Assembly: GCF_025628885.1 (NCBI RefSeq)
Contig: NZ_JAOTIF010000016.1
Coordinates: 1 to 64,000 of the forward strand
Length of the DNA: 64,000 nucleotides
From: Paraflavisolibacter caeni
GTDB taxonomy: Bacteria; Bacteroidota; Bacteroidia; Chitinophagales; Chitinophagaceae
Direction of reading: 5' to 3'
This document shows, in pieces, positions 3,935-58,604 of this stretch; position 1 is the first letter of the stretch; the number at the start of each line of letters is the position of its first letter. The notes beneath the pieces were generated by a model, which made no database searches, was not told the origin of the DNA, and saw only the letters and a program-made list of their open reading frames with translations. The position numbers and the translations under genes are program-made.

Positions 3935-5266
3935 TTACTGCAACTGAGTAGCGAGTTTGTTTCTCTTGCGAATGAACAGGTTGTAGAAGGGATAGGAAAA
4001 AATGATGAGGGACAGGATGACCAGGAAGCTGAATTGATCGCTGATGGCAAAGCCAATGAATAGGGCGATTGTGACAATGAAAGCGAAATAAGTGGAGAAG
4101 GGATAGCCCCAGGCTTTATAAGGACGATGCAATGTGGGCTCCTTTTTTCGTAAATATATCAATGAGAGAAAGGCAAAGCCTGTGACCATCGTCATCATGA
4201 AGGCTCCTAAAGCGAAGAGCTGTTCAAAGGAACTCAGGAGGATCATGGTTGTGGCAATGGTATAGCAAAACAGAAGTGATATGTAAGGTGTTCCGCCTTT
4301 GTTCAGGATCGTTCCCTGTTTTATAAAATAGCCATCTCTGCTCAGCCCAAATAAGATGCGTGAAGGGATCATCATATAAGCGTTGAGAATACTGAAAAGA
4401 GAAAACAACGCTATCATAATAATTAAATTTTTACTCCACCTCCCAAAAGCTACTGAAGCTGCATCTGATGCGGCCAGTGTTGAATTGGCAATTGCACTAA
4501 CCGGGAGCACATACAAGATAGCTGCATTGACCAGGACGTAAAGCAGCATTACAGTTAAAGCGCCGATCATGTAAGACTTAGGAATGTTGTGACCGGGATC
4601 CTGGTCTTCTTCAGCAAAGAAAGAAACGGACATCCATCCATCGTATGAGCCCATAATAAGTTGTAATGATTTAAAGACAGCGATGAACATTCCCCCGCTT
4701 AGTAAAGGAGTATTGATACTTTGAATAGTGGTGGTATGTTCGCTGAAAAAACAACCTCCTATCAATACTAAAAAGAGCAACACTTTAGCAGCACTGGTTA
4801 CTTGCTGGATGCTGCTGCCACTTTTCACTCCCGGCAAGTTGAAAAGCGTAAAGAAGCTTAGAAACAAAATCGCTACCAATGTTGTATAGGGTTTTATACC
4901 CGGGAAGATCAAGGTGGTATATTCACTTAACACAATGCAGAAGTAAGCAGGCGCTATTGCGTTACAGATGAAATCAAACCAGCCATTTAAAAAGCCCGCA
5001 TAACCGCCGAAAGCTCTTTTGATGTAATTGTAAGCCCCTCCAGCTTTGGGGAGCATTGTAGTCAGTTCGGCATAAGAGGAAGCTGACAGAAGAATGTATA
5101 TGCCAACGAGTATCCAACATAGTAAGATCATGGGAGCACTTGGCAAAACAGCAGCAATGGTTGAGGGAGCTCTTAAGATACCAACTCCAATTGTACCTCC
5201 AACTACTACGGCAATCCCAAAGGCAACTCCTAATACTCTTCTTAGCTTGTTAATATGCTTTTTCAC
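3935..5266 (-). CDS. APC superfamily amino acid permease
   Basis: A 443-residue inner-membrane transporter with about 12 hydrophobic helices. The N-terminal 'VVVGGTIGVGILRAPSTIA' is the glycine-rich first-helix motif (GxGIF-like) of the amino acid-polyamine-organocation superfamily. 'LPKAGGAYNYIKRAFGGYAGFLNGWFDF' is the typical TM3 region and 'PKSYMIGALTV' the loop before TM7. The start MKKHINKLRRV has the usual cytosolic basic tail. The substrate is not determinable, but an amino acid exchanger or importer is most likely. The neighbours are unrelated and the gene appears to be transcribed alone. Confidence 0.88.
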   Translation of the reverse strand: MKKHINKLRRVLGVAFGIAVVVGGTIGVGILRAPSTIAAVLPSAPMILLCWILVGIYILLSASSYAELTTMLPKAGGAYNYIKRAFGGYAGFLNGWFDFICNAIAPAYFCIVLSEYTTLIFPGIKPYTTLVAILFLSFFTLFNLPGVKSGSSIQQVTSAAKVLLFLVLIGGCFFSEHTTTIQSINTPLLSGGMFIAVFKSLQLIMGSYDGWMSVSFFAEEDQDPGHNIPKSYMIGALTVMLLYVLVNAAILYVLPVSAIANSTLAASDAASVAFGRWSKNLIIMIALFSLFSILNAYMMIPSRILFGLSRDGYFIKQGTILNKGGTPYISLLFCYTIATTMILLSSFEQLFALGAFMMTMVTGFAFLSLIYLRKKEPTLHRPYKAWGYPFSTYFAFIVTIALFIGFAISDQFSFLVILSLIIFSYPFYNLFIRKRNKLATQLQ

Positions 5267-5492: not shown

Positions 5493-5903
5493 TTACTTTT
5501 TCTGTCCCAGTGAAAACCAGTTTCCAGAATCGTCAACAAACAAAGCTTCGTAGCCGTAAAACTCTTTTGTTGGGGGTTTTTTGAAAACGATTCCTTTGGC
5601 TTTCATTTCTTCGTATGTTGCATTCAGGTCATTGCATTCAAATACACCAAAACCAAATGTCCCTTTCTTTACAAGTTCTCTCATTTGTTCGGCTGCACCG
5701 TCTTTGAACATCATACCGTCTTCAATAGGCATTAAAGTAATTTCCAATTCCGGTTGCTCTGGTGTGCAAACAGTCAACCAACGCATCCCTGGTCCCATTG
5801 GTGCATCTGTGTGCACTTTGAAGCCGAGTTTGTTCACATAAAAATCATAAGCACTGTCCTGATTAAGAACAAAGATGCTTACATGGCTTAATTGGGTAAT
5901 CAT
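5493..5903 (-). CDS. VOC (glyoxalase/bleomycin resistance) family protein
   Basis: A 136-residue vicinal oxygen chelate fold protein. Residues 4-30 ('LSHVSIFVLNQDSAYDFYVNKLG') form the first beta-alpha-beta module, and the second covers 'FGVFECNDLNATYEEMKAKGIVF' to 'YGYEALFVDDSGNWFSL'. The first His and a Glu in the second module are the expected metal ligands. Function within VOC ranges from dioxygenase to resistance protein and cannot be decided here. It lies 57 bp downstream of an AraC-type regulator on the same strand, so the pair is probably one operon, with the regulator controlling it. Confidence 0.87.
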   Translation of the reverse strand: MITQLSHVSIFVLNQDSAYDFYVNKLGFKVHTDAPMGPGMRWLTVCTPEQPELEITLMPIEDGMMFKDGAAEQMRELVKKGTFGFGVFECNDLNATYEEMKAKGIVFKKPPTKEFYGYEALFVDDSGNWFSLGQKK

Positions 5904-5960
5904 AGTTCACTTTTTGTATTGCTTATGTAAGCAAAAGTCAACATTGATTTTTCAATCCAC

Positions 5961-57743: not shown

Positions 57744-57784
57744 AAAAACAAAAAGCCCCGTAAGCTTTTTAACTTACAGGGCTT
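57744..57784 (-). terminator. Intrinsic terminator of the tRNA-like RNA gene
   Basis: On the minus strand, AAGCCCTGTAAG / CTTACGGGGCTT forms a 12-bp stem (one U-G) with an 8-nt loop, followed by TTTGTTTTT. It starts 16 nt after the tRNA-like 3' end, which fits a dedicated transcript. Confidence 0.85.
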
Positions 57785-57800
57785 CACATGAGAAATCTGC

Positions 57801-57971
57801 TGTAGGGGGAGGGTTCGAACCTCCACGGGGCCGTTAGACGCAACACAAAACTTAGTGGTCAACCCTGGTCGGCCGAACAAAGGTGTCAGGTCGGCTCTAT
57901 GTTGTTTTTATCCGGTGATCCCCACCCTCGAGACAAGAGGGCATGTCTGCCAAAAATTTCATCACCCCACA
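57801..57971 (-). tRNA. tRNA-like RNA with ~100-nt variable arm (class II)
   Basis: Minus strand, 171 nt. Acceptor TGTGGGG / CCCTACA pairs over 7 bp (an eighth C-G pair is possible outside). U8-G9; D-stem ATG/CAT; D-loop AAATTTTTGGCAGA with A14, G18-G19 and A21 in place; G26; anticodon stem CCCTC/GAGGG with 7-nt loop TTGTCTC (U33 present, anticodon read as GUC, position 37 unusually U); T-arm GGAGG-TTCGAAC-CCTCC, fully canonical. Between anticodon and T arms are 100 nt instead of 4-24. That insert starts with TGGGG, ends with CCCCG (a possible variable-arm stem) and contains CAACATAGAG/TTTTGTGTTG and CCGA/TCGG stems. G73, if 7/5, would suit serine identity; the D-arm recalls tRNA-Leu. No CCA is encoded. 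It could also be a pseudo-tRNA carrying an insertion. tmRNA is unlikely: the 5' end and length do not fit. Confidence 0.7.
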
Positions 57972-57999
57972 GTATTCATTTGTATCAATGATCTGAGAA

Positions 58000-58030
58000 C
58001 AAAATTAATACAAAACACTATTCCTTCAAA
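58000..58030 (-). promoter_or_regulatory. Bacteroidota-type promoter of the tRNA-like RNA
   Basis: On the minus strand, TTTG (58030-58027), a 19-bp spacer and TAATTTTG (58007-58000) match the -33/-7 consensus exactly. The predicted start lies about 20-25 nt before the RNA 5' end at 57971, leaving a leader that RNase P would remove. Confidence 0.65.
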
Positions 58031-58121: not shown

Positions 58122-58604
58122 ATGAATTTGAATATTGACAAACTTGATTTGCAAATTATTGAGTATTTAACACAAGATGCTCAAATTTCCTATGCAGATT
58201 TAGGTAAAAAGTTGTTCGTTTCGCCCGGAACGGTACATGTACGGATCAAGAAATTACAGGAAAGCGGCATTGTGAGCGGGACCCGAATGCATGTTGACCT
58301 AAAGAAACTGGGTTTTGATGTGATTGCATTCATTGGGATTTACCTGGAGAAAAGCTCCCTTTATGATGTGGTCGCTTCCGAGTTAGTGAAGATCCCTGAA
58401 ATCGTTCGCATGAATTACACAACCGGTAACTGGAGCATCTTTGCTGAGGTGGTTTGTAAGGATATTGCTCAATTGCGCAGTGTGCTGCACGATGAATTAC
58501 AAAAAATCAAAGGCATTGAACGCACTGAAACTTTCATTTCGCTGGAAGAATCGTTGAACAGGACGGTGAAGGTGATGGCGGATGAGGAGAATGATGCCCC
58601 CTAA
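58122..58604 (+). CDS. Lrp/AsnC family transcriptional regulator
   Basis: A 160-residue regulator. The N-terminal HTH 'LDKLDLQIIEYLTQDAQISYADLGKKLFVSPGTVHVRIKKLQESGIVSG'-type sequence (begins 'IDKLDLQIIEYL') is complete, and the C-terminal RAM/ligand domain follows ('VIAFIGIYLEKSSLYDVVASEL', 'MNYTTGNWSIFAEVVCKD'). It probably responds to an amino acid. It is divergent from the tRNA-like RNA gene. Its stop codon lies in the palindrome CCCCTAAGGGG and overlaps the stop of the ABC permease gene. Confidence 0.92.
   Translation: MNLNIDKLDLQIIEYLTQDAQISYADLGKKLFVSPGTVHVRIKKLQESGIVSGTRMHVDLKKLGFDVIAFIGIYLEKSSLYDVVASELVKIPEIVRMNYTTGNWSIFAEVVCKDIAQLRSVLHDELQKIKGIERTETFISLEESLNRTVKVMADEENDAP

Follow-up and report, generated by a model that had tools for sequence, protein, structure and literature searches.

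A conserved oversized tRNA-like RNA beside an AsnC-like regulator gene: a probable non-decoding carrier for asparagine synthesis in Bacteroidota

Introduction

Among tRNAs, tRNA-Sec and the allo-tRNAs combine a long variable arm and unusual stems with a decoding role, while in Staphylococcus aureus a non-proteinogenic tRNA-Gly serves cell-wall synthesis. In Escherichia coli, AsnC, whose gene is divergent from asnA, regulates asparagine synthetase by asparagine level. tRNA-dependent asparagine synthesis, which employs a non-discriminating AspRS, tRNA-Asn and GatCAB, is described for Deinococcus, Thermus and Bdellovibrio in PMC4206432. The same paper names genera, Bacteroidetes included, that have AsnRS, GlnRS and GatCAB with no Asn synthetase, assigns a U1-A72 tRNA-Asn to all of them, and suggests that asparagine is perhaps made on that tRNA-Asn.

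Here we describe an RNA gene in a 64,000-nucleotide stretch of Paraflavisolibacter caeni DNA (the window). The function proposed below resembles tRNA-dependent asparagine synthesis in its enzymes, its chemistry and U1-A72 as the GatCAB mark, but the carrier would be an RNA devoted to this task, with an Asp anticodon and no decoding role, and the genomes concerned also have AsnRS. The RNA shares a long variable arm and unusual stems with tRNA-Sec and the allo-tRNAs, which differ in their shorter arm, other anticodons and decoding role, and it lacks a steady 8-bp acceptor. Like the staphylococcal tRNA-Gly, it would be a tRNA specialised away from decoding, although the latter has near-normal tRNA size, another amino acid and another use. 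The arrangement of an AsnC-like regulator divergent from a putative asparagine-synthesis gene recalls E. coli AsnC/asnA, except that the regulator's target here would be an RNA gene.

The RNA gene and its detection

The following features were assigned in and around the gene.

57800..57971, minus strand: tRNA-like RNA, positions 1-73 plus variable arm, read from the sequence
57971-57965 with 57807-57801, minus strand: acceptor stem, U1 at 57971 and A72 at 57801
57800, minus strand: discriminator G73; the -1 nucleotide is C at 57972
57941-57937/57929-57925, minus strand: anticodon stem
57930..57936, minus strand: anticodon loop UUGUCUC, GUC at 57934-57932 and C38 at 57930
57825..57924, minus strand: variable arm, 100 nt
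57923-57920/57830-57827, minus strand: outer stem of the variable arm, with two-sided covariation
57915-57913/57833-57831, minus strand: inner stem of the variable arm, with two-sided covariation
Variable arm, between the inner stem and the 10-bp stem, minus strand: GAUAAA/CUAA internal loop
57904-57895/57850-57841, minus strand: 10-bp stem of the variable arm, with two-sided covariation
57808..57824, minus strand: T-arm GGAGG-UUCGAAC-CCUCC, with compensatory pairs in the alignments
58000..58030, minus strand: Bacteroidetes-type promoter match TTTG-19-TAATTTTG, upstream of the RNA
57745..57783, minus strand: terminator-like hairpin followed by a T run, found by eye, no tool score
58122..58604, plus strand: divergent AsnC-like regulator of the Lrp/AsnC family (Pfam PF01037 plus HTH)

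A D-arm was also read in the tRNA core. The initial annotation had placed the RNA at 57801..57971, which is the right locus but stops short of G73, and its measure of 100 nt for the variable region (57924-57825) agrees with ours. A covariance model of the family (R1) matched the window at 57798-57972 with 113.9 bits, corresponding to an RNA of ~175 nt. The gene had further been credited with its own promoter and terminator. A match to what we take to be the Bacteroidetes-type promoter consensus does lie at 58030-58000, but of 113 RNA copies only 45 have the same -7 motif in the 80 nt preceding them, so that the promoter by itself is weak evidence; the hairpin at 57783-57745 stands as a reading by eye.

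Standard tools, whose use the annotation had proposed as a check, missed the RNA. ARAGORN called no tRNA and no tmRNA in the window, and Rfam gave no match at gathering score; at E<=10, three non-tRNA matches far below cut-off fell on the RNA locus. Likewise, no Rfam family was matched by the three RNA copies in locus L128, and the only copy named by ARAGORN in 11 RNA loci was a 79-nt outlier (L145). A tmRNA or a known Rfam RNA was discarded on these grounds. Since no Rfam family was matched where searched, the RNA is probably unannotated in many genomes. The folding energy of the window copy was within chance (z -0.64), the values for four short forms (-1.88, -0.93, -0.80 and -2.45) were uninformative, and the minimum-energy folds contained a GGCA/UGCC hairpin in place of the D-arm; the case for a structured RNA therefore rests on comparison.

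Distribution and covariation

With blastn in 98 relatives, strong homologs (E<1e-20) were found in 36 of the 59 genomes belonging to the same family as the window. Most of these genomes had a single homolog, and short or tandem copies occurred in other genomes. A covariance model built from 11 short forms and run over genomes of the window's order and class showed that the RNA is widespread in both. The named matches among those listed, namely Chitinophaga pinensis, Niabella, Terrimonas, Algoriphagus, Cyclobacterium, Echinicola, Fulvivirga and Saprospiraceae, belong to Chitinophagales and Cytophagales. The RNA is an oversized tRNA-shaped RNA carried by many soil and water bacteria. Carriage by plasmids was rejected, the plasmid collection having given no match, and no account of this RNA was found in the open-licence PMC literature.

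In the loci searched, complete members scored 68.5-141.9 bits with the covariance model, compared with at most about 62 bits for matches of 83-88 nt, which are presumably ordinary class II tRNAs. Member length was 110-213 nt, one 79-nt outlier aside. Homologs with a normal tRNA core and no insert, which would have spoken against a maintained RNA, were sought, and the short members (110-132 nt) still belonged to the same tRNA-like family. The exception in ordinary length is the outlier, L145 in genome G341 (5838-5914, minus strand, 77-79 nt), which has an ordinary-size variable loop and an AUC anticodon, is unlinked to AsnC and is named tRNA-Asp(atc) by ARAGORN. Tandem arrays of three to five RNA copies were seen in loci L148-L152 (family f18) and L128 (family f23), and in the L149 array forms of ~122 nt and 180 nt alternate.

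Covariation was examined in three alignments. In the 11 short forms, 99.1% of cells were paired and 12 of 29 pairs were changed on both sides; in 35 long forms, the corresponding values were 98.3% and 17 of 37. Covariation in the long forms reached 0.289 versus 0.132 after shuffling, a level attained in 0 of 500 shuffles, and slid controls fell far below it. A larger set fitted to the model (116 rows, 113 distinct, two ordinary tRNAs among them) was 98.2% paired, with two-sided change in 25 of 29 pairs. The 10-bp stem noted in the initial annotation (helices 6 and 7) is real, as 8 of its 10 pairs were changed on both sides in the long forms. The anticodon stem showed no two-sided change in the short or the long forms; in the larger set it did show such changes, and its second-from-inner pair was U-G, G-C, U-A or C-G. 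Two stems, of 4 bp and 3 bp, and an internal loop resembling GAUAAA/CUAA are common to the variable arms of short and long members, and the arm distal to this loop differs between members. Homologs and covariation in the insert thus bear out the claim of a maintained class II tRNA-like RNA. A dead insertion or an intron was rejected because the insert is conserved, covarying and located in the variable arm.

Identity nucleotides

Position counts were taken from 114 RNA copies of the window's order and class, 113 of them with the 5' end; two ordinary tRNAs (Tyr and Trp, L128) were excluded from the 116 model matches, and one 5'-truncated copy (L045) and two divergent ones (L145 and L146) were kept. 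U1-A72 and G2-C71 were each present in 113/113 copies and G73 in 114/114. The anticodon was nearly invariant (G34 in 110, U35 in 113 and C36 in 113 of 113), as was C38 (112 of 113). Position 33 was U in 85, C in 16 and G in 12 copies, and position 37 was U in 108, G in 4 and C in 1, so the U33 and purine 37 expected of an elongator tRNA do not hold across the 113 copies. The -1:73 pair was C-G in 60, U-G in 41 and A-G in 12 copies and hence often not Watson-Crick, which leaves no steady 8-bp acceptor; tRNA-Sec would combine such an acceptor with a UCA anticodon, in place of the GUC seen in 110/113. Pairing of AGAC with GUCU was dropped as a reason for the GUC anticodon, as copies with GGCAGCC still have GUC.

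The suggestion that the RNA is charged with serine or leucine was not supported. The bacterial Leu discriminator is A73, and the RNA has G73 in all 114 copies. SerRS reads tRNA-Ser without using the anticodon, so a Ser tRNA would have no reason to retain the strong Asp anticodon set kept here.

In the review PMC9976931, the strong Asp determinants are given as G73, G34, U35, C36 and C38, with G1-C72 also helping AspRS recognition, and the amidation determinant as U1-A72, with G1-C72 and U20a as antideterminants. The RNA carries the full strong set; the G1-C72 of bacterial tRNA-Asp is replaced by U1-A72 in 113/113 copies. Together with the absence of U20a (position 20a is A, within GGCAG, in our own numbering), U1-A72 agrees with the GatCAB sequence rule. 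Read from its sequence, the RNA appears to combine an Asp anticodon with a GatCAB-acceptable acceptor end and relaxed decoding positions.

The adjacent AsnC-like regulator

The top NCBIfam model for the regulator at 58122-58604 was AsnC with 161.2 bits (cut-off 227), followed by Lrp at 55.6 bits, and its best PDB match was E. coli AsnC (2cg4). The protein therefore seems far closer to AsnC than to Lrp, though below the NCBI AsnC cut-off. Of 79 RNA loci, 53, representing 16 families, had a divergent Lrp/AsnC-family gene at a distance of 96-265 nt. No third linked protein emerged from these loci, every neighbour family apart from AsnC being present in 18 or fewer of the 79.

A profile of 22 sequences was used to search for orthologs in 119 genomes of the class (G000, G003, G030, G047 and G285-G399, a composition deduced from a partial listing). 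At 199 bits, a threshold with no clean gap (G399 scored 199 bits, the next genome 193), an ortholog was detected in 24/24 genomes with the RNA and 6/95 without it. The contrast was 24/24 versus 5/95 at 217 bits, and under the loosest threshold (E<=1e-25) 14/95 genomes without the RNA were positive. In a second set of 31 genomes, one of which (G047) is common to both sets, the ortholog was present in all 12 f18 genomes, where RNA and regulator gene are unlinked, and in G050 and G189, which also have the RNA; it was found in only two (G044 and G253) of 17 genomes without the RNA. Combined, the ortholog accompanied the RNA in 38/38 genomes and occurred in 8/111 without it. Seven of these eight exceptions were tested for synthetases: five had AsnA or E. 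coli-type AsnB, and both enzymes were missing from G286 and G331. In G382, which has AsnC and no RNA, the gene divergent from asnC is asnB itself. In four loci where the RNA is absent or unlinked (L315, L322, L323 and L324), a pyrroline-5-carboxylate reductase-like ORF was noticed by eye near asnC.

GatCAB and asparagine synthetases

The enzyme survey covered 80 related genomes, hand-picked and not random, of which 46 had the RNA and 34 did not; of 82 first named, two without the RNA (G290 and G295) were left out. Absence of the RNA was rechecked with looser filters in 14 genomes and otherwise taken from covariance-model scans, and GatCAB was judged by gatB alone. AsnRS was present in 80/80 genomes. 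GatB was found in 46/46 genomes with the RNA and 12/34 without it, and GlnRS in 40/46 and 22/34, respectively. Eleven of the 12 GatB-positive genomes without the RNA had no GlnRS; the twelfth, G189, carries the 5' part of the RNA beside asnC at a contig end and was consequently moved to the RNA-positive group, giving gatB in 47/47.

GatCAB has no textbook job in genomes with both AsnRS and GlnRS. Among such genomes, GatB was present in 41/41 with the RNA and 0/21 without it (p 5e-17, phylogeny ignored); before G189 was moved, the figures for GlnRS-positive genomes were 40/40 and 1/22. One genome, G021, yielded neither GlnRS nor GatB; it is rated 99% complete in 240 contigs, and the lack may reflect an assembly gap.

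E. coli-type AsnB occurred in 0/47 genomes with the RNA versus 7/33 without it, and AsnA or E. coli-type AsnB in 2/47 (AsnA in G112 and G468) versus 11/33. Eight RNA-positive genomes had AsnRS with neither a TIGR01536 homolog (E<=1e-20) nor an AsnA match. TIGR01536 homologs, mostly 600-670 aa among the matches listed, were present in 38/46 RNA-positive genomes and might make asparagine. Lack of these synthetases is not special to RNA-positive genomes, as 22/33 genomes without the RNA also lacked both AsnA and E. coli-type AsnB, 12/15 genomes from the family of the window among them, and in G047 and G257 there was no homolog at all; many relatives thus live without the two enzymes, through uptake or otherwise. 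Close comparisons agreed with the survey: in genus g1 (G015 versus six relatives), genus g34 (G253 versus G050 and G189), family f23 (G399 versus G285) and family f61 (G323 versus G362), the genome without the RNA had no GatB and had AsnB or AsnA.

The neighbours of GatB in three genomes, viewed by eye, suggested no further part. No host tRNA-Asn was found in 1.2 of 2.85 Mb of contig C2 of G030; the one found elsewhere (L248, a Saprospiraceae MAG) has G1-C72, a single case that proves little.

Proposed function and alternatives

What was observed is that the RNA is conserved and covaries, which identity nucleotides it carries, and that it co-occurs with AsnC and GatB; from these observations we infer charging, amidation, ribosome exclusion, release and regulation. 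The RNA is probably a tRNA that does not decode and is devoted to asparagine synthesis through AspRS and GatCAB. AspRS would load aspartate on the RNA via the Asp anticodon, C38 and G73, and even a discriminating AspRS should accept it as an alternative carrier. GatCAB would then read U1-A72 and amidate the bound aspartate to asparagine. We propose that the odd anticodon loop and the large variable arm bar the charged RNA from the ribosome, where an RNA with asparagine attached and a GUC anticodon would cause Asp codons to be misread. Release by hydrolysis or a deacylase could free asparagine to feed AsnRS, and the AsnC-like regulator may adjust the RNA to the asparagine level. On balance, we favour a reusable carrier for free asparagine that replaces AsnA/AsnB in many Chitinophagales and Cytophagales and is set by an asparagine-sensing regulator. 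If so, a tRNA gene has become a metabolic cofactor or carrier that no longer decodes, which would account for the GatCAB kept by many Bacteroidota despite AsnRS and GlnRS.

The identity nucleotides and GatB data are also compatible with an Asn-charged donor from which a transferase hands asparagine to a lipid, peptide or protein with no release, much as staphylococcal non-proteinogenic tRNAs feed cell-wall synthesis. We consider such a donor unlikely, given that the AsnC link and the alternation with AsnB point to free asparagine and that no neighbour other than AsnC occurs in more than 18/79 loci.

Somewhat less likely still is that the RNA acts as a regulatory mimic, binding AspRS as a decoy or sensor to control Asp/Asn metabolism and not passing its amino acid on. 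Elsewhere, aminoacyl-tRNA synthetases are regulated by tRNA mimics. Retention of Asp determinants with loss of decoding positions and the adjoining AsnC suit this reading, which leaves unexplained both the invariant U1-A72 and the occurrence of GatB with the RNA (41/41 versus 0/21).

That the RNA is an unusual decoding tRNA of Asp, Ser or Leu type, active on the ribosome, is very improbable: its class II shape, a D-arm resembling that of tRNA-Leu and its place in phage tRNA arrays have to be set against C or G at position 33 in 28/113 copies, U37 in 108/113, variable arms of 100 nt and more, and an ordinary tRNA-Asp(gtc) in the same phage array (L291). Shared ancestry with no function behind the link of this conserved RNA to AsnC and GatCAB is the least credible reading, for although the genomes are related, the p values ignore phylogeny and linkage may be inherited, the association persists where RNA and AsnC are unlinked, and the comparisons within two genera and within two families agree.

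Phage copies

The RNA was also found in ten IMG/VR contigs (L287-L296) and in the 636-kb phage LR756504.1 (L297, 13312-13457), with scores of 100-119 bits. Several copies lie within long tRNA arrays, as in L289, where the RNA sits between tRNA-Gly and tRNA-Ser(gct), and ARAGORN called other tRNAs in 8 of the 10 IMG/VR loci and in LR756504.1. For a carrier in asparagine synthesis, these copies are consistent with phages sustaining the host asparagine supply, and are not evidence for it; they would also point to a reason for phages that have large tRNA arrays to include an RNA serving amino-acid metabolism.

A second phage family was observed in the same contigs, with near-constant tRNA acceptor, D-arm and T-arm sequence (TAGTCAGG...CCTGACTA) and a hypervariable interior with no recognisable anticodon stem. 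Its sites in L289 are at 4913, 5128, 5954, 6141, 6476, 7681, 7945 and 8135 (minus strand); the family also occurs in L290, L291 and L293-L296, and its 3' motif is present in at least 120 IMG/VR stretches.
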